Below, piece after piece: positions 4,065 through 47,475 of a stretch of 47,475 nt of DNA. This stretch comes from a virus. Made by a program: the position numbers and the translations under genes. The DNA is taken from positions 1 to 47,475 of IMG/VR virus record IMGVR_UViG_3300017987_005486; one strand, 5' to 3'. The notes beneath the pieces were generated by a model. It was not told where the DNA came from and did not search any database. It saw only the letters and a list, made by a program, of their open reading frames with translations. Within the stretch, counting starts at the first letter, position 1. Every line of letters begins with the position of its first letter.

Positions 4065-4409
4065 ATGGATAGAATCAAGATTGCTCGAACCCTGTTAAAA
4101 CTTGCGAAGCAGTTGATTTCCGGGCAAATTAAGGGTGATAATGTTGATACCGTTATCAGAAGTATCCGTAAGGAGATAAAGGCATTTACACAGGTTTCAC
4201 TTCCGGTTGTGACGGGAAGCAGGGTGCGCGATGGCAAGGCTTTATTTATTGGGTATCCGTCACGTGACGACGCTTCTGAGGCTAATAGATATTTGAACAA
4301 ATTGGTTGCTAACTACAAAGGCAGAATAGCTATCAAGGTTGGAGCGGTAGTCATGGGTCGTAGCAGAAAAGCTCCTTTTGAATTTTTGGTGACTGTCAAA
4401 GAAGAATGA
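4065..4409 (+). CDS. Small protein with the shared N-terminal helix
   Basis: The 114-residue product starts MDRIKIARTLLKLAKQLISG, a clear copy of the N-terminal helix found in neighbouring genes. After residue about 40 it becomes a mixed alpha/beta domain (VSLPVVTGSRVRDGKALFIG; AIKVGAVVMGRSRKAPFEFL). AAAAGGAA lies just before the ATG. The stop overlaps the topoisomerase start as ATGA, so the two are translationally coupled. I recognise no family. If the helix is a targeting tag, this domain would be delivered to the same place as the topoisomerase. Confidence 0.6.
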   Translation: MDRIKIARTLLKLAKQLISGQIKGDNVDTVIRSIRKEIKAFTQVSLPVVTGSRVRDGKALFIGYPSRDDASEANRYLNKLVANYKGRIAIKVGAVVMGRSRKAPFEFLVTVKEE

Positions 4410-6148
4410 AAGAGATAGTTGCAGAGCTGCTTAGCATCGCTAAACTGTTACGTACGGTAAATCCGTATCTCAATACTCCTCCAACGGAGCTTGCTCGAAG
4501 GGTCAAAACTGAGAAAGACTCTAAAAAGAAGAAGCAAATGCAAGAAGCTCTTGGAGCTTGGAGATATGTTGTTCCAGGCCCATTTCGAAAGGTTGCACAA
4601 GAAAAGCTGACTCCAGCTCAACAAGCTCAACGAGTACGCAAAAGGTCAGATGGTGTTAGGAAGCTTGCTGAAAATTTGGGACGTTTGAGGGACAAGATAA
4701 ACAAGGACCTGAAATCAAACGACGAGAAAGAGCAATTAACTGCGATGGTTGTTGCTCTTATGGATAAGACGGCTGAACGTGTGGGGAATGAGAGCTCAGC
4801 AAAAAACAATGATCACCTTGGAGTAACAACGTTCAGGAAGAAGAATTTCTCGATTGATGGAGATAGAGTCAAGCTTGTCTATACAGGAAAGTCAGGAGTC
4901 AAACACCAGAAGGAATTTACAGACAAGCGTTTAGCTACTATGCTCAAAAGTTTGTTGGATAGAACGAACGGAAACTCGGATTTTGTATTCAAAACGAACG
5001 ATGGGTTCAAAATCAAAGCTGATCGGATAAATAGGTTTTTGCAGCCATTTAACATTCGAGCAAAGGATATTCGAGGATATGCAGCTAACCGCTACATGAT
5101 TCGTTCTTTGAAACGTCGTGCAATTGAGCCAGATGAAAAAGACAGAAAAAAGCGATTTTTGGAGACTCTTAAGGATGTAGCAGAAAGAGTGGGACATACG
5201 CCAGGAATGCTTCGAAATTCGTATCTACTGCCCAATCTTGAAGAGCAGTACATCAAGAAAGGAAAAATAGTGGAGTTGAATGGTAAGAAACGCACAGCGG
5301 TGCAATGGGGAGCGCCAAACAACTTAGCACAGGCAAAAACTTTAAGGCTTCTGTGGAATTTTTGGAAGATGTCGGGAATCAAATTTGCCGACTTCCAAAC
5401 ACATACGGAGGTCAAGTTTCCGCCTTCTGATGACAATGTAGACGATAGAGTAGAAATGGACTTTTACACGCTGCTGAATGAGTTTCATATCACAGCAACG
5501 GTAAAGGGAGATTACCTTGGAGCAACACAGTCCAATAGGAGAGCACGCGCTTCGGAAGATTGGGACCGTGGTAGTGACCTTTCGGATGGACCTTTTTCGT
5601 TTGAAACGTGGGCAAACATTTTAGGCGATATGTTGAGTTGTGAGTTGGAGAATGTCGTTTCTGATGTGATGCATAACCCAGAATGGCAAAAGTATCACGG
5701 TTGGACTCCCAGGTGTGAAGGTGGAGAGGGAATTTCAGAGGGTGAAATGGAGGAGAAGTTACAAAATCAAAGTGAGGGAGCATTAGACTCTCAAATTAGC
5801 GTCTGGGAGGGAGAGGGAATGGAAAACGAAAAAGTTGCCAAGGAATTGGTTAGAATTGCCTATTTGGTGTTAGCAGCAGATGTTTGGACTCTTTTGAAAG
5901 AAAATGTTCCCGAGCACAAGCTCCGTCCTGAAAGGAAAGATAAGGACCGTATTTACAGAAGCATTTTTGAGAGAGCACGTGGAGACGTAAACAAGATGCT
6001 TCAGTTAGCCAGAGCTATGGCAAAAAGCATAAAGGGTGCAGCTAAAGCATGGCGGCGTTATGAAGCTGCTGAAGACCAGAATTTTCATGACGTTGCAGAA
6101 ATTTTTCATGAGCGGGCAAGAGAACTCGCCTTGCAAGGAAAGTTCTAA
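4406..6148 (+). CDS. Type IB DNA topoisomerase with a long C-terminal extension
   Basis: Residues about 70-290 form a poxvirus/bacterial-type topoisomerase IB core. The whole catalytic set is present: Arg125 (AERVGNE), Lys162 (YTGKSGVK), Arg223 (KDIRGY), His264 (VGHTPG) and nucleophile Tyr273 (RNSYLLP). Enzymes of this family relax supercoils through a 3'-phosphotyrosine intermediate. The protein starts with the helix shared by its neighbours (EIVAELLSIAKLL). Residues 305-580 are an extension not found in ordinary TopIB. They include a strand-rich part (VEMDFYTLLNEFHITATVKG), an acidic linker and a helical tail that starts with another copy of the shared helix at residue 472. The gene lies among head-tail joining genes, not replication genes, so a virion-borne or packaging-linked role is possible (inference). 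Confidence 0.9.
   Translation: MKEIVAELLSIAKLLRTVNPYLNTPPTELARRVKTEKDSKKKKQMQEALGAWRYVVPGPFRKVAQEKLTPAQQAQRVRKRSDGVRKLAENLGRLRDKINKDLKSNDEKEQLTAMVVALMDKTAERVGNESSAKNNDHLGVTTFRKKNFSIDGDRVKLVYTGKSGVKHQKEFTDKRLATMLKSLLDRTNGNSDFVFKTNDGFKIKADRINRFLQPFNIRAKDIRGYAANRYMIRSLKRRAIEPDEKDRKKRFLETLKDVAERVGHTPGMLRNSYLLPNLEEQYIKKGKIVELNGKKRTAVQWGAPNNLAQAKTLRLLWNFWKMSGIKFADFQTHTEVKFPPSDDNVDDRVEMDFYTLLNEFHITATVKGDYLGATQSNRRARASEDWDRGSDLSDGPFSFETWANILGDMLSCELENVVSDVMHNPEWQKYHGWTPRCEGGEGISEGEMEEKLQNQSEGALDSQISVWEGEGMENEKVAKELVRIAYLVLAADVWTLLKENVPEHKLRPERKDKDRIYRSIFERARGDVNKMLQLARAMAKSIKGAAKAWRRYEAAEDQNFHDVAEIFHERARELALQGKF
5819..6148 (+). other. Possible internal translation start inside the topoisomerase gene
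   Basis: ATG 5819 is in frame with the topoisomerase (its residue 472) and is preceded by the purine-rich GGGAGGGAGAGGGA. The 109-residue product from here would begin MENEKVAKELVRIAYLVLAA, which matches the N-terminal helix used by separate genes nearby, followed by a basic helical domain. This suggests either a nested second product, or a formerly separate gene fused in frame to the topoisomerase. Only the sequence pattern supports it. Confidence 0.45.
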
Positions 6149-35404: not shown

Positions 35405-35989
35405 ATGCAAGAGCTTGGTGAAAAAATGAAGCATTTGCAGGAGAATATTAAGCAGGGTGCATGTTTTCGCCGTTATGACTCCAACATGATGGAGTGCAAG
35501 ATTTGCATGTTGCGCGATTTCTGTCGTGAAGCAACACAGAACGCTGAATACAAGTTTCAATCACTTCCTACTGATGAGAAAGGGAAAAAGGTTGTTGTAG
35601 AGCCAGCAGCAAAAACTCCACCACCAAAAGAAGAAATTGAAAGAGCGACATCTTCTGTGAAGGAAGCAGTATTGAAGGCCATGTCACCACCGAAAAAGGC
35701 GATGCAAAAACCAAAGTTGTTTACGGAAGAATTCATTGAGGCTATGAATAAGGAATTCACCTTACGCAACAAAAAGAAGGGACAAGTCGGGACTTTATGG
35801 GTATTTGATCGTGACGGAATCAACTGCATTGTTGTAATTGGGAATGCGGGAGCAACAGAAATAGCAGTAAATGGTAAAACAGTGAAAGAGTTGAGGTTGA
35901 TAGAGCACGACCAAATTGATAGCATTGTTTCTTCTCTTGTTGAATGTGTTGAACGTGAAAAAGCTGAAATTCGTGATGAAGACAAGTGA
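35405..35989 (+). CDS. Protein of unknown function with N-terminal Cys cluster
   Basis: The 194-residue protein has a Cys cluster near the start (CFRRYDSNMMECKICMLRDF, then C), giving C-x(10)-C-x2-C-x5-C, which could hold zinc or an iron-sulphur cluster. A Pro/Lys-rich linker follows (VVVEPAAKTPPPKEEIERAT). The C-terminal half is alpha/beta (GTLWVFDRDGINCIVVIGNA; ATEIAVNGKTVKELRLIEHD). AGGAGAGG precedes the ATG. Its end overlaps the helicase start by 14 bases. I recognise no family. The context between the sigma-like factor and a helicase suggests a nucleic-acid role. Confidence 0.55.
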   Translation: MQELGEKMKHLQENIKQGACFRRYDSNMMECKICMLRDFCREATQNAEYKFQSLPTDEKGKKVVVEPAAKTPPPKEEIERATSSVKEAVLKAMSPPKKAMQKPKLFTEEFIEAMNKEFTLRNKKKGQVGTLWVFDRDGINCIVVIGNAGATEIAVNGKTVKELRLIEHDQIDSIVSSLVECVEREKAEIRDEDK

Positions 35990-36938
35990 ATACAAGTACT
36001 TCAACTTTCCGTTCTATGAATTCAACAAGGCACAGTCCGCTGTCATCCCGCATATAACGCGTGACATTAATCTTGTTGTTTCATTTCCGACCGCAACTGG
36101 AAAGACTGCCATTGCTGAGGCTGCGTTTGGTTACTATTTGCAGACAATGCAAAACAGCAAATGTATTTATGCATCACCATATCGTTCGTTGAGCATGCAA
36201 AAACAATCTGATTGGATGGAGGATTTACAGTTATCGAGGTATGGCATAGTGATCAACACGGGAGACCATTTGGCTGATACGAGTGAATTTGAAGCTGCCA
36301 GACTAATAATTTTGACTACGGAATCATTTGATTCAAAAACCAGAAACAAGCAACAGTATTCTTGGCTGAAAAAGGTTATTTGCGTAGTGATAGATGAGGC
36401 ACATCTGTTGGGTATGAAAGGTCGGGGAGATAGTGTAGAAGCGGTGCTAATGAGGTTTACCGAACTAAATTCGGCAGCGCGTATCATTTTGCTTTCAGCA
36501 ACAATGTCCAATGCTGAGGAATTGTCAGCTTGGTTGAAAATGCTAAATGGCAAAGAGACTTTGAAAGTGACGAGTCGGTGGCGTCCAACTCGGATACGAA
36601 CACAGTTCCACACGTTTGATGAGTATGACAAGGAATCATGGGCAAATAGAATAAAGATGACAGTGGAGTTGATACAGTCAATTCCAGATAGCGAAAAGGT
36701 GATTGTTTTTGTGCATAGCAAAAGATTGGGTAGGGAGTTGGCTGCTTTAATACGTCGAGCAGGAGTAGCTTGTGCATTTCATAATGCCGATTTGTCTCAT
36801 TCTAAGCGCAAACAAATTGAAAAAGCATTTGATGACCCACTATCTGGATTGAATGTGATAGTGTCTACATCTACTTTGGCGAGCGGGGTTAACATTGGCG
36901 TTTTGTTTCTGACTTTTTGTGCTGCTTTACTCTTATGA
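35976..36938 (+). CDS. Ski2/Hel308-type helicase, N-terminal half of a split gene
   Basis: The 320-residue product has the first part of a superfamily-2 helicase: Q-type motif (YEFNKAQSAVIPHI), motif I PTATGKT (38-44), motif II DEAH (140-143), motif III SAT (174-176), motif IV (KVIVFVHSKRLG) and motif V STSTLASGVNIG (297-308). It then leaves the family pattern and stops after 12 unrelated residues (VLFLTFCAALLL). Motif VI and the C-terminal domains lie in a separate gene at 38353. The two halves together make about 660 residues, the usual size. The halves may assemble into a working enzyme, as known for other phage genes split by homing endonucleases. ATG 35976 is chosen over the upstream TTG. 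Confidence 0.82.
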   Translation: MKTSEYKYFNFPFYEFNKAQSAVIPHITRDINLVVSFPTATGKTAIAEAAFGYYLQTMQNSKCIYASPYRSLSMQKQSDWMEDLQLSRYGIVINTGDHLADTSEFEAARLIILTTESFDSKTRNKQQYSWLKKVICVVIDEAHLLGMKGRGDSVEAVLMRFTELNSAARIILLSATMSNAEELSAWLKMLNGKETLKVTSRWRPTRIRTQFHTFDEYDKESWANRIKMTVELIQSIPDSEKVIVFVHSKRLGRELAALIRRAGVACAFHNADLSHSKRKQIEKAFDDPLSGLNVIVSTSTLASGVNIGVLFLTFCAALLL

Positions 36939-38356
36939 AAAGAAGTTGCTTAGTATGTGGTAAAATATTCCATGTTGTGCCCGCAATAGTGAGAAGCGGG
37001 TATGGGAATTTTTGTTCGATAAAATGTAAAGGGATAGCCAAACGAGTAGCAAAGAAGGTATGTCCTGTATGTGGAAAAGAGCTTAGGGTGACAGTTGGAG
37101 CTAAAAAGGGGAAATTTTGTAGTATTAAATGTTTTGGGATTTCTGCAAGAAAGAAAAAAGTGGATATTATTTGTGCACAGTGTGGGAAAGCATTGAGTTT
37201 GGACTTGCATAGGACCAAGAACGTTAAAAATAATTTTTGCTCACGTGAGTGTCACGACAAGTATCAGCGAAGAAATACTGTAAAAGCTGTTTGTAAAATT
37301 TGTGGGAAAGAGTTTACGATGCCTCCGGGACAAGCACGACAAAGAAAGAGCGCTAAATATTGTTCTATGAAGTGTCGAAATTCTGATGAAGATTTTATTG
37401 AGTTTCTTGCTATACAAAATCAAAAACAACAACAAAGGAGAAAGGGTTTGAATAAGTTGGAACTTGCTGGGAAAGAAATACTTAATGACCTTGGAATAAA
37501 GTTTTGTGAGCAAGTACTGATGTTTAAGAGATTTGTTGTTGATGTGTTACTCTTAGAGCATAGAGTGATTGTGCAATGGGATGGGGATTATTGGCATTGT
37601 CATCCAAAGTATGAGAATCCTAATAAGGTACAGCTTCGCATAAAAGCTAAAGATAAAGCTGTTAACGCATATTTGAAAAAATGCGGGTATCGGGTTTTGA
37701 GATTTTGGGAATCTGATGTAAAGCAAAAACCTGATTATGTTCGAAGAAAGATTGTTTCGCAAATTAGGAAAATGGAAGCTCATGGGTAAAAGTAAAGCAG
37801 AAACGCTGACTGAATTGCAGCAACGTTGTTTAGCATGCCGGAAGTGTTCAATTGGTGGTAAGCTGATTGGCGGCAGATTGAGCAATGTGTGGTCGAACAT
37901 GTCTATGAAGGCCCAGATAATGGTTATAGGCCAGAATCCGGGTCAAGTAGAGGTTGAACTGGGAAGGCCATTTGTTGGGCCTTCTGGACATTTCTTTGAT
38001 AGAGCGATCAAAGACGTGTTGGAGTTGGATCGATCACATTTCTATATTTCCAATTGTGTACGTTGTTTTACGCCAAACAATCGTGGTCCGACTCAAGATG
38101 AAAAAGACAACTGCCAAGAATTCTTGGATGCAGAAATTGTAGCTGTTGATCCAAAATTGATTGTTACGCTGGGTGGACCGTCGTTAGAACAGTTGTCAGG
38201 ACGGCGTGGGATTATGAGATTGCACGGAAAGACTTTCATGTCGTTGCGGTATAGCAAACCTGTATTGCCCTTATTGCATCCAAGTCCTTTGAATATGAAT
38301 TCAGTAGAAAAGAGAGAGATGTTTTACAAAGACTTGGAAGCTTTGAGAGAGTATGT
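36900..38356 (+). mobile_element. Putative homing insertion splitting the helicase gene
   Basis: This is the segment between the end of helicase motif V (after GVNIG) and the first residues that resume the family pattern (DRIIIVGI). It holds the homing endonuclease and the uracil-DNA glycosylase and little else. Joined across the gap, the helicase would read LASGVNIG-DRIIIVGIRRG, as expected for the family. The edges are estimated from protein alignment by eye and may be off by several bases. Confidence 0.6.
36935..37789 (+). CDS. Homing endonuclease, EDxHD/Vsr-like, with four zinc fingers
   Basis: The 284-residue protein starts in ATGA overlap with the helicase fragment. Residues 5-147 hold four tandem fingers of the form C-x2-C-G-K ... 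[FY]-C-S-x2-C: C5/C8-C27/C31, C43/C46-C62/C66, C80/C83-C102/C106 and C120/C123-C143/C147. These would read the target DNA. Residues 170-275 form a Vsr/PD-(D/E)xK-like nuclease with Glu176 (KLELAG), Asp203 (VVDVLL), QWDGDYWH (Asp216, Asp218, His221) and CGYRVLRFWESDV. This is the plan of EDxHD homing endonucleases such as I-Bth0305I. Its place exactly inside a conserved helicase gene supports a mobile role. It is written with codons similar to its neighbours. Confidence 0.8.
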   Translation: MKRSCLVCGKIFHVVPAIVRSGYGNFCSIKCKGIAKRVAKKVCPVCGKELRVTVGAKKGKFCSIKCFGISARKKKVDIICAQCGKALSLDLHRTKNVKNNFCSRECHDKYQRRNTVKAVCKICGKEFTMPPGQARQRKSAKYCSMKCRNSDEDFIEFLAIQNQKQQQRRKGLNKLELAGKEILNDLGIKFCEQVLMFKRFVVDVLLLEHRVIVQWDGDYWHCHPKYENPNKVQLRIKAKDKAVNAYLKKCGYRVLRFWESDVKQKPDYVRRKIVSQIRKMEAHG

Positions 38357-38360
38357 CTGA
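37782..38360 (+). CDS. Family-4-type uracil-DNA glycosylase
   Basis: The 192-residue protein removes uracil from DNA. It has the family-4 signature: N-terminal CLACRKC (Cys16 and Cys19), GQNPG (50-54), GRPFVGPSG (61-69), NCVRCFTPNNRGPT (91-104), NCQEFL (Cys111) and the active-site HPSPL (His166). Cys16, Cys19, Cys95 and Cys111 fit the four ligands of the iron-sulphur cluster found in this family. ATG 37782 overlaps the endonuclease stop by eight bases; its own stop overlaps the second helicase half by eight bases. It lies inside the segment that splits the helicase. Why it is there is unclear: passenger of the endonuclease, or a gene recruited later. Confidence 0.87.
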   Translation: MGKSKAETLTELQQRCLACRKCSIGGKLIGGRLSNVWSNMSMKAQIMVIGQNPGQVEVELGRPFVGPSGHFFDRAIKDVLELDRSHFYISNCVRCFTPNNRGPTQDEKDNCQEFLDAEIVAVDPKLIVTLGGPSLEQLSGRRGIMRLHGKTFMSLRYSKPVLPLLHPSPLNMNSVEKREMFYKDLEALREYV

Positions 38361-39381
38361 TCGGATTATTATTGTTGGTATTCGGCGTGGAAGTGAAAAA
38401 GTTCCCATTTCTGAAATTGTGCAGATGCAGGGACGTTGTGCACGTACTCCTGGTGCAATAGGGTATGTGGACATTTTAGTTGGTGAAGATGATTTGGAAG
38501 AACTGAAGTGTGGGTTGGCTGATATTGACAATTTGTACGTTAATTCCATGATGAGCGATAGTGAAACACTTGCGTTTCATTTGGTCGCTGAAATCAGCTT
38601 GGGACGAGTTTCAACATTGCGTGAGGCTGAAGAATGGTACAAAAAGAGCTTTGCTCATCATGTGCGATTGCCGGTTGATTTGTCTGAGGTGATGGAATTA
38701 TTGGTGAACGAATGGGATGCTGTGATTAAACGGGGGCCTTTGTTTTTGCCTACTCAGTTTGCTCATTTGGCAACACGTTATTATTACCACCCTGCGGATA
38801 TTTTTGATTGGAAGGAAAATTTCATAGAGCTTTTTTCAAGCGGAAGAAAAAACAATGACGTTGCCCTTTCGTGGGCATTATCTCATGTTTGTTTTGATAA
38901 AACGAGATATAATGTTTATGGAAGTTGGGAGGCGATAGATGAATACAAAAGCCAAACAGCTTCATTGGGCCTTGATTGCACAGGTAGTGTTGCTGGTGGA
39001 TTGATTTGGTGGAGTATTTTAGGTGGGCCACCTGTTGGGCGACTGCGTAGTATGGTAAAAACTGTGCGAGAAGATTTTGGTCGTCTATCTAAAGTGTTGA
39101 TGGAACTAAATGGTATCTGCGGTTGGAACCAACAGAAGTTTTTCGAGGATTTGAAAGTGCGCGTTACTTATCGTGTTACTGAGGATTTGGTGGAATTATG
39201 CAAAATTCAAGGAATCAATAAAACTCTTGCGGCTGAACTATATAATTTTGGTGTAAGAACGCTGGATGATGTTGAAGATAAGTGGGTACAAATAGAGACG
39301 TATGGTAGTAGCCACCTTGTGAGAGTGCTGAGAGGGTTAGTGAATGGTAAAGGACCTTTTGTATGGTCAACGAGCGGTTAG
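38353..39381 (+). CDS. Ski2/Hel308-type helicase, C-terminal half of a split gene
   Basis: The 342-residue product starts MSDRIIIVGIRRG and soon gives motif VI as QMQGRCAR (24-31), normally QxxGRxGR; the two Arg are kept. A winged-helix and helical bundle follow (VMELLVNEWDAVIKRGPLFL; TQFAHLATRYYYHP). Near the end is a helix-hairpin-helix (GINKTLAAELYNFGVRTLDD), as in Hel308-like enzymes. It has no Walker A of its own and can only act with the product of 35976. It overlaps the glycosylase by eight bases and the HEAT gene by 38 bases. Confidence 0.8.
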   Translation: MSDRIIIVGIRRGSEKVPISEIVQMQGRCARTPGAIGYVDILVGEDDLEELKCGLADIDNLYVNSMMSDSETLAFHLVAEISLGRVSTLREAEEWYKKSFAHHVRLPVDLSEVMELLVNEWDAVIKRGPLFLPTQFAHLATRYYYHPADIFDWKENFIELFSSGRKNNDVALSWALSHVCFDKTRYNVYGSWEAIDEYKSQTASLGLDCTGSVAGGLIWWSILGGPPVGRLRSMVKTVREDFGRLSKVLMELNGICGWNQQKFFEDLKVRVTYRVTEDLVELCKIQGINKTLAAELYNFGVRTLDDVEDKWVQIETYGSSHLVRVLRGLVNGKGPFVWSTSG

Positions 39382-45220: not shown

Positions 45221-46099
45221 ATGCCAATTCAACCACTCCGTAGGCGACATGATTACGGATTGCGCGATGACAAAGAAGAGGATAAGGAGGATAAGAAAAT
45301 GTCATTAAAAAGGGTCGCAGCTGAGCAAATGATTATGAGAATTGCTATCGATCAATTAGTGCAAGATTTTCCTGATAGCATGATTACAGCGAACGAAATG
45401 GAAGAAATTTGTGCTCCTTGCGCTGCCAAAATGCGTGAATTGCATGTTAAGTCAGTTAAGTTGTCTGCTGTGCGAGACACAATCATGCAAAAGGCAGCGG
45501 CTGATTACACACCTCGTGATTTGAAGGAGTGGACTCAAAAAATCAAGAAGGCAGTAACTGAATTACGTAAGAATTGGCATAGCTCTGGTTTGAAAAAGGC
45601 AAGTTTGGGAACTCATGTTTGTGAGATGACGGGTCTTGAACCATGGCAGGTTCGTGCCGTGTTAGATCGAGTTAGATCAAGAACAGCATTGGGTTGGAAA
45701 GATTTGCCTCGCGGTTGGACGATGGAAAGCGTCAAAAGCTATTGGGCTACTCTTACTGGTGATGCTAAACATAAGGTTACAAAGTGCATGAAAGATATGG
45801 CTGGTAAAGTAACTGACCCGGCAGCTTTTTGTGCTTCATTGCGTGATATGATCGAAGGAACTACTTATTGGCGTGGTCCTTCTCGGCGTGCAGCTTGGGA
45901 GAAACTTCCTCGTGGTTGGACACGTGAAAGCGCATTGAAGTATTGGGCTACTCTTACTGGCGATGCCAAGCATAAAGCCACAAAGTGCATGAAAGATATG
46001 GCTGGTAAAGTAACCGATCCAGCGGCTTTTTGTGCTTCATTGAAGGATTATGTGGAGGGGACCACTAAGTGGCGTAAGGGGCCAAAGAAGACAAAGTAG
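45221..46099 (+). CDS. Basic protein with two tandem 67-residue repeats
   Basis: The 292-residue protein is strongly basic. Residues 162-228 and 229-288 are two copies of one unit, each starting LPRGWT and running through YWATLTGDAKHK, TKCMKDMAGKV, TDPAAFCASL and EGTT. Two Cys per unit (TKCMK and AFCAS) are kept. The copies are close to identical even in DNA, so the doubling is recent. I have an impression of similar single units in other large-phage proteins but cannot verify it. ATG 45299 has a far stronger ribosome site (AAGGAGG, eight bases upstream) and may be the true start, giving 266 residues that begin MSLKRVAAEQ. The stop overlaps the tubulin-like gene's GTG (TAGTG), implying coupled translation. 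Confidence 0.68.
   Translation: MPIQPLRRRHDYGLRDDKEEDKEDKKMSLKRVAAEQMIMRIAIDQLVQDFPDSMITANEMEEICAPCAAKMRELHVKSVKLSAVRDTIMQKAAADYTPRDLKEWTQKIKKAVTELRKNWHSSGLKKASLGTHVCEMTGLEPWQVRAVLDRVRSRTALGWKDLPRGWTMESVKSYWATLTGDAKHKVTKCMKDMAGKVTDPAAFCASLRDMIEGTTYWRGPSRRAAWEKLPRGWTRESALKYWATLTGDAKHKATKCMKDMAGKVTDPAAFCASLKDYVEGTTKWRKGPKKTK
45704..46084 (+). repeat. Tandem 201-base direct repeat
   Basis: The unit starting at 45704 repeats at 45905, exactly 201 bases later, and the second copy is cut slightly short. The stretch from TATTGGGCTACTCTTACTGG onward (45740 and 45941) differs at only a small number of positions over about 100 bases, mostly third codon positions. It encodes the two 67-residue protein units. 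Confidence 0.85.
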
Positions 46100-47475
46100 T
46101 GCAACTGAAAAGGTTCATGCTTCGGAGGGTTGGCAATAAAGTTGAAATAGTGATTGATGATGACGTCGAGCGAAGCACGGGAGAAAGAGTTATGGGGAAA
46201 AAGAAGTTGGACTTGGATGTGAATGCTTTGAGTGCCGGTATGGATACCGGAGAAGATAAACCTAAAGGAGAAACTCCCATGGAAAACCAGAGTGGATTTG
46301 TTGTTCCAAACATTCCGATGCCTGCTGATGTGGAGGAAAGAGAAGTTGTCCATGATGAGTGCGATGTAGCATTCAAATTTGCGTTTATTGGAGCAGGTCA
46401 AGCTGGCGCACGAATGGTAGAAACTTTTTACAAGTTAGGCTATCGGCGTGTTTGTGCGATTAACACAAATAGTCAGGATTTAACAGCAATCAACATTCCA
46501 GAAGAGAATAAGCTGGTGATGGATATTGGTGAAGGTGGTGCAGGAAAAGAACCGGAAAAAGGAAAGCAGGCAGTCAAACAGTATTATGAAGACGTCTACG
46601 ATTTGATGAAAAGGAGCTTTGGGAAAGATTGGGAGCGTATTTTGATTTGCATTGGAGCTGGAGGAGGAACAGGCAGTGGTTCTGTAGAGACGCTTGTTGA
46701 TATCAGTCATGATATTGCTGAATCTTTCAAGCTTGAGGGTGGTCCTGGTCAACCTCCTGTTGTTGGTGTACTGGTATCTATGCCTCAATCTGGCGAAGGA
46801 CAAAAGGTCAACTATAACGCGCACAACGTTTTGACTATGCTTTTTGGGAAAGTAGGAAGGGACAAAGGCAAAATAGCGGGCCGAAGCATTTCGCCTTTGA
46901 TTATCGTTGACAATGACCGTATCAGCAAGCTATACCCAGGTTTGCCTGTGACGCAGTTTTGGGGTGTGGCTAATCAAAGCATTAGTGGTTTGTTTCACCT
47001 GTTTAACAATATTGCTGCTACAAGAGGCGAGAATGCGATAACTACGTTTGACAGGTCTGATTTGGCAGGAGTTCTTACCAGCGGTGTGATTACTTTTGGA
47101 GCAACACCATTGATAAAATGGGATAGTGCTACGGATATTAGCTATGCTATTCGTGACAATTTGCGTAGGAACATATTGGTTGCGGAATTGGATTTGAACA
47201 TTGCTTCTATAGCAGCTTGTGTAGTGATTGGAAAGTCAAAGGTTCTTGATGTGATTCCACAAGAAAATCTCGAACATGGCTACGAAATGCTTAGCCGTGT
47301 TATGAAGTCGAATAGTGTTGTTCATCGTGGGCTTTATAAGTTGGATAAAGAGCTGGATAGCGCAGAAAATCAACCCGACTTGGTTGTGTATACAGTTTTG
47401 GGCGAATTAGGTGTTCCTGAATCAAGGATGGATGAAATTGCTCGAATTGGGGGAAAAGGCACTCCAAGACGATGA
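46099..47475 (+). CDS. Tubulin/FtsZ-superfamily GTPase (phage tubulin)
   Basis: The 458-residue protein has the tubulin/FtsZ GTP site: T1 loop FIGAGQAGARM (96-106), NTNSQDL (122-128), and the signature T4 loop GAGGGTGSGS (186-195). The T7 loop TTFDRSDL (315-322) has the Asp residues that trigger GTP hydrolysis in the neighbouring subunit, so it should polymerise and hydrolyse. Known phage tubulins (PhuZ, TubZ) position DNA or replication sites in the cell. The C terminus is basic (GGKGTPRR), unlike the acidic end of PhuZ. The start is uncertain: GTG 46099 is coupled to the previous stop, while ATG 46279 (residue 61) has AAAGGAG eight bases upstream and begins just before the GTPase fold. The gene ends at the last base of the window. 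Confidence 0.87.
   Translation: MQLKRFMLRRVGNKVEIVIDDDVERSTGERVMGKKKLDLDVNALSAGMDTGEDKPKGETPMENQSGFVVPNIPMPADVEEREVVHDECDVAFKFAFIGAGQAGARMVETFYKLGYRRVCAINTNSQDLTAINIPEENKLVMDIGEGGAGKEPEKGKQAVKQYYEDVYDLMKRSFGKDWERILICIGAGGGTGSGSVETLVDISHDIAESFKLEGGPGQPPVVGVLVSMPQSGEGQKVNYNAHNVLTMLFGKVGRDKGKIAGRSISPLIIVDNDRISKLYPGLPVTQFWGVANQSISGLFHLFNNIAATRGENAITTFDRSDLAGVLTSGVITFGATPLIKWDSATDISYAIRDNLRRNILVAELDLNIASIAACVVIGKSKVLDVIPQENLEHGYEMLSRVMKSNSVVHRGLYKLDKELDSAENQPDLVVYTVLGELGVPESRMDEIARIGGKGTPRR

Follow-up and report, generated by a model that had tools for sequence, protein, structure and literature searches.

When a gene is found in pieces, the selfish endonuclease that occupies the gap usually gets the blame; in 2009, Dassa et al. 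reportedly described fractured genes that combine split inteins with endonucleases of the EDxHD type. Two phage genes also provide close comparisons for the locus described here. The nrdA gene of phage Aeh1 is split by mobE, and the split NrdA is fully functional (PMC2988022). Gene 43 of Aeromonas phages 25 and 44RR shows the same split with and without an endonuclease, the 43A and 43B proteins of phage 25 copurify and have polymerase activity, and the endonuclease has been suggested as a possible invader of an already split gene (PMC2988022).

We analyzed a 47,475-nucleotide stretch of viral DNA (the window) in which a helicase gene lies in two halves, with an endonuclease gene and a uracil-DNA glycosylase (UDG) gene between them. 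Genes in pieces of the Aeh1 nrdA kind are already known, and a helicase with a UDG in its break is a variant of that kind. As with Aeh1 nrdA, a phage DNA metabolism gene is cut at a functionally critical place, and the interruption holds a free-standing endonuclease; the gene is intact in 65 relatives, and an endonuclease lies between the pieces both in the window and in one relative, L065. Unlike with Aeh1 nrdA, the broken gene encodes a helicase, the cut separates motif V from motif VI, the break always houses a UDG, and the endonuclease, seen in just one lineage of the seven, is seemingly secondary. The two-piece product of Aeh1 nrdA works; for the helicase halves, reassembly is predicted, and an Aeh1-like assembly is the most likely way in which they would function. 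The locus resembles gene 43 in having the same split with and without an endonuclease across phages, but the other spacer of gene 43 is untranslated and the spacer here is a conserved enzyme gene. Like the Dassa-type fractured genes, it is a two-part gene with a Vsr/EDxHD-like endonuclease between the parts; those genes have split inteins and this one has none, so its pieces would have to assemble without protein splicing. The comparison with relatives suggests that the usual order of events can be reversed, with a stable, long-kept break that holds an enzyme gene and was invaded by an endonuclease afterwards.

The elements of the break are the following (a slash marks a junction here and below).

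35976-36938, plus strand: helicase N-half, with RecA1 and the first part of RecA2, motifs I to V
36899-37781, plus strand: endonuclease cassette of 883 nt, missing where L005 and L229 have the corresponding junction (GG/ATGA)
36935-36938, plus strand: ATGA stop/start overlap of 4 nt between the N-half and the endonuclease gene
36935-37789, plus strand: free-standing endonuclease gene, with a Cys-rich, zinc finger-like N terminus and a Vsr/DUF559 (EDxHD-like) nuclease domain
37782-38360, plus strand: family-4-like UDG, with four aligned cysteines, GQNPG as motif A, and HPSPLN as motif B
38353-38360, plus strand: overlap of 8 nt between the UDG stop and the C-half start, with zero noncoding sequence between
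38353-39381, plus strand: helicase C-half, with the remaining RecA2 including motif VI (QMQGRCAR), C-terminal domains, and a helix-hairpin-helix-like end

An earlier note on this DNA had placed the two halves and the two intervening genes at these positions, and we found all four there; the ORF coordinates also bear out its description of 4- and 8-base gene overlaps with almost no noncoding DNA. The native N-half ends with the Gly codon at 36897-36899, and the following 12 amino acids are read from the insert; the terminus is STSTLASGVNIG (GVNIG), and we assign the 12-residue tail, VLFLTFCAALLL, to the insert. The C-half begins with MSDRIIIVG, just ahead of the strand that follows motif V. The ATGA that joins the N-half to the next gene is also found in L005, L229, and L065. 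With its ATG at 37782, the UDG overlaps the endonuclease gene by 8 nt; a longer UDG ORF from 37737 was rejected because the start in the relatives corresponds to 37782. In the window's break, neither the promoter scan nor the terminator scan gave a result above chance. The overlapping stops and starts suggest that the N-half, UDG, and C-half would be made from one message by coupled translation.

The split gene is a Hel308/Brr2-like helicase cut directly after motif V. The N-half matched the Pfam families DEAD (1.6e-26) and Helicase_C (2.1e-9), the latter over profile positions 4-81 of 110 only. Profiles of both halves matched Hel308 2p6r in complementary ranges, the N-half from residue 26 and the C-half from residue 340. 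AlphaFold models of the separate halves had mean pLDDT values of 86.7 (N-half) and 88 (C-half), and Foldseek searches with these models returned Brr2 and Hel308 as the best PDB matches for the halves. The complementary 2p6r ranges and the Brr2/Hel308 model matches indicate that both halves come from one parent family. This agrees, by sequence and by fold, with the single parental Ski2/Hel308-type helicase of the earlier note; we also looked at whether the halves derive from different parent families, and both align to 2p6r. The two products carry the motifs that had been reported for them, I to V in the N-half and VI (QMQGRCAR) in the C-half, and taken together they hold the Hel308 fold and motifs. 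The unsplit relative L002 missed the NCBIfam Hel308 equivalog cutoff (208 bits versus 1200), and by this measure the family is Hel308-like, not Hel308. A second helicase of the same type was not found in the records of the split lineages, which may be fragments and carry no completeness estimate.

Relatives were gathered by alignment-based scans, and after removal of duplicates, we compared 74 helicases, of which 65 were uninterrupted, 5 carried an in-frame insertion of 1296-1305 bp, and 4 were split. Unsplit relatives, for which the earlier note had proposed a search, thus number about 65 distinct sequences, with one codon, sometimes two, at the break site. Scans of viral contigs with the N-half or C-half as a single-protein query returned nothing, and alignment queries were needed; genome contigs yielded a single helicase-bearing MAG contig, which is unsplit, and plasmids yielded a weak match only. 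In the metagenomic contig L106 (6320-7736), the helicase is frameshifted near motif V, which is either real or a sequencing error. The in-frame inserts are LAGLIDADG inteins flanked by AWG and CNLP (AWG/C...HN/CNLP; L010, L052, L079, L098, and L188, the last called from insert size only). On the helicase tree, these inteins are dispersed (one-clade AU P = 4e-11), and near-identical intein-free sisters exist (L014/L015 for L010 and L110 for L098), so motif V appears to have been repeatedly invaded, in a pattern that fits recent mobility. These inteins of related phages invaded the same motif of the same helicase family as the break described here, but they are in-frame cis elements placed two to three residues nearer the N terminus, whereas the break divides separate genes. 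One short motif has drawn inteins, endonucleases, and cargo genes.

The same break with a UDG was found in the window and in six further phage lineages (L005/L004, L115, L214, L216, L229, and L219), and this recurrence shows that the split is not chance. L005 and L004 are one phage sequence, and L213/L215 have a locus identical to that of L115. The order in L005/L004 is N-half, UDG, C-half; the genes overlap by 4 nt and 11 nt, and no endonuclease is present. In both L005 and L229, the UDG overlaps the N-half by 4 nt and fills the entire 570-nt gap. L115, which was found with a C-half query, has the same order; L214, L216, and L229 were found with a UDG query; and L219, at the end of its contig, gave an N-half and a UDG. 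In every case, the residues just before the break are GVN[LIM] or GINI. The UDG is the constant resident (7/7 lineages, in a sample retrieved partly with a UDG query, which favors UDG-bearing cases). The other cargo varies: the window has the endonuclease, L219 has small ORFs before the UDG, L115 has them after it, and L214 has one small ORF after it; the small ORFs of L115 had no significant PHROG match. In L219, small ORFs and a terminator-like hairpin (5941-5966) lie between the N-half and the UDG (5164-6003), and a TATAAT-like box, seen by eye and not listed by the promoter scan, stands just before the UDG.

The N-half, C-half, and UDG trees each placed the split lineages on one side of a branch, with support of 100/99-100, and all three agree on the pairs window with L005 and L115 with L214. 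The outgroup L231 was dropped from the UDG tree because its long branch was disturbing. For the N-half, UDG, and C-half alike, pN was well below pS, with dS saturated or >2; motifs I, II, III, V, and VI are kept, and the frames are open in all split lineages. The shared trees and the purifying selection suggest one old break with a UDG, inherited and selected, and the split with its UDG appears to be the older, inherited arrangement.

The UDG of the window gave a Pfam match of 1.1e-29 and a TIGR00758 score of 113.6 bits, against a cutoff of 125.3. The four Fe-S cysteines and the HPS of motif B align with 4zbx and 1vk2 and are invariant among three relatives. Motif A is GQNPG in 7/7 break UDGs, and several phage UDGs that stand alone have it too; in family 4, it is GE(A/G)PG. 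The Glu that is replaced in the break UDGs is a conserved residue of both family 4 and UdgX, and an E52A mutant of UdgX has much lower activity (PMC10359453, PMC10776899). We place the break UDG nearest to family 4, below the curated cutoffs and with putative activity. Both genes that the earlier note described between the halves, an EDxHD-type endonuclease and a family-4 UDG, are present, the first as an EDxHD-like gene and the second as a family-4-like one that falls below the family cutoffs and has GQNPG. In the records of L088, L089, L108, and L186, a UDG domain lies within long ORFs (849-1105 aa), like those of phages with a UDG fused to DNA polymerase, and in the record of L089 (L202), the UDG part is apparently interrupted by an intein-like end (HN/S). 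ORFs starting like intein C-parts were seen in L226 (3036-4286, PVHKNSH) and L228 (2890-4056, PIHKNSH), upstream of stand-alone GQNPG-type UDG genes.

The window endonuclease matched Pfam DUF559 (9e-11) and Vsr (3e-7) and is classed by profile match, catalytic residues aside, as Vsr/DUF559 type and EDxHD-like. Its gene has a GC content of 36.5%, versus 41.7-43.3% for the helicase halves and the UDG (UDG, 43.3%). A search for it in the records of the UDG-split relatives returned no match, and the GG/ATGA junctions of L005 and L229 are the empty site of the 883-nt cassette. Since these relatives are split without it, the endonuclease seems to have joined a gene that was broken before, most likely by entering exactly between the N-half and the UDG. 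The proposal that the window's endonuclease broke the gene is not supported in that form, as the same split with a UDG and without the endonuclease occurs in six other lineages.

L065, from another branch of the family, shares the site of the helicase cut; between its halves lies a lone Vsr/EDxHD-like endonuclease, with an ATGA and an 8-nt gene overlap as in the window. The two endonucleases have only a short nuclease stretch in common (26% over 69 columns). An AU test with three split lineages, before L214, L216, L229, and L219 were added, did not reject L065 as a member of the split clade (P = 0.30). An endonuclease alone at the site makes an endonuclease-caused break possible in principle, also for the ancestor of the UDG clade. 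On the same contig as this split helicase (L065, 7186-10280, and L204 in reverse complement), the gene for a ribonucleotide reductase has the look of a textbook fractured gene, in the order intein N-part, EDxHD-like endonuclease, intein C-part (ending SHN/S).

We consider it fairly probable that the locus reflects a single ancestral break, a resident UDG, noncovalent reassembly, and a later endonuclease. A Hel308-like gene would have been broken once, in the ancestor of the lineage, at the codon after motif V (GVNL/P-ADR), and a UDG of the phage GQNPG subfamily would have stayed in the break ever since. The N-half and C-half would reassemble noncovalently into one ATPase with motifs V and VI from different chains. 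Judging from the fold, the halves must meet because the two motifs belong in one active site, and the conservation of both halves suggests that they probably reassemble into one working enzyme. Such a superfamily 2 motor, divided in nature between its motif V and motif VI ATPase elements, would be a test case for a helicase core that operates with two chains. In the window lineage, a free-standing and presumably homing-type endonuclease would later have inserted between the N-half and the UDG; we infer the order, split and UDG before endonuclease, from the gene arrangements. Later insertion is the simplest reading, and its rival is an ancestral endonuclease that broke the gene first, was joined by the UDG as a passenger, and was lost from the other lineages. 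The lone endonuclease of L065, with its identical site and overlaps, fits that order, as does the position of the window endonuclease at the edge of the break, and endonuclease loss is common in general. However, presence in only 1/7 UDG-split lineages requires several losses, and the low similarity of the L065 and window endonucleases means that they are not demonstrably one element; an endonuclease-first origin seems to us rather unlikely. The split may instead have been kept as useful, with the UDG as a functional partner and the N-half, UDG, and C-half forming a three-subunit repair helicase. The UDG is in all seven lineages and its tree matches the trees of the halves, whereas the rest of the cargo varies between lineages, and UDGs are fused to DNA polymerase in other phages, so that linkage to replication proteins recurs. 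A compact operon and difficult precise excision would nevertheless explain this constancy without interaction, and the use of a UDG query in finding relatives favored UDG-bearing cases, which leaves the three-subunit enzyme doubtful. Its extension, in which the two-chain motor and an obligate UDG partner form a phage repair/restart complex with the break as a cargo landing site, is more doubtful still.

One gene in two pieces could also be a decaying helicase, with the halves as functionless remnants. The motifs kept, the open frames, and pN far below pS with saturated dS make this highly improbable; the pseudogene reading was rejected on pN/pS, and the halves in relatives, whose decay would have spoken against the earlier note, are conserved. 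Rejoining of the halves by a self-splicing intron or a split intein has in its favor that such endonucleases are found within introns and next to split inteins and that cis-inteins occupy the same motif V in other phages. The spacer, however, had no Rfam match for a catalytic RNA core, and in L005 and L229 the UDG overlaps the N-half and fills a spacer that is coding; an intron was rejected on these grounds, as the earlier note had ruled out an ordinary group I intron. The N-half stops at the motif (GVNIG and 12 residues) and the C-half resumes at the next residues (MSDR), which leaves no intein halves, and a split intein was likewise rejected; in contrast, the ribonucleotide reductase on the L065 contig has what read as real split-intein ends. 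From these gene boundaries, an intron or split intein is very unlikely, and we give rejoining by splicing almost no credence beside a noncovalent assembly.

Elsewhere in the window, 46099-47475 encodes what is by eye an FtsZ/tubulin-like protein (GGGTGSG) that runs off the window end, and the product of 4406-6148 is by eye like a type IB topoisomerase (VGHTPGMLRNSYL).
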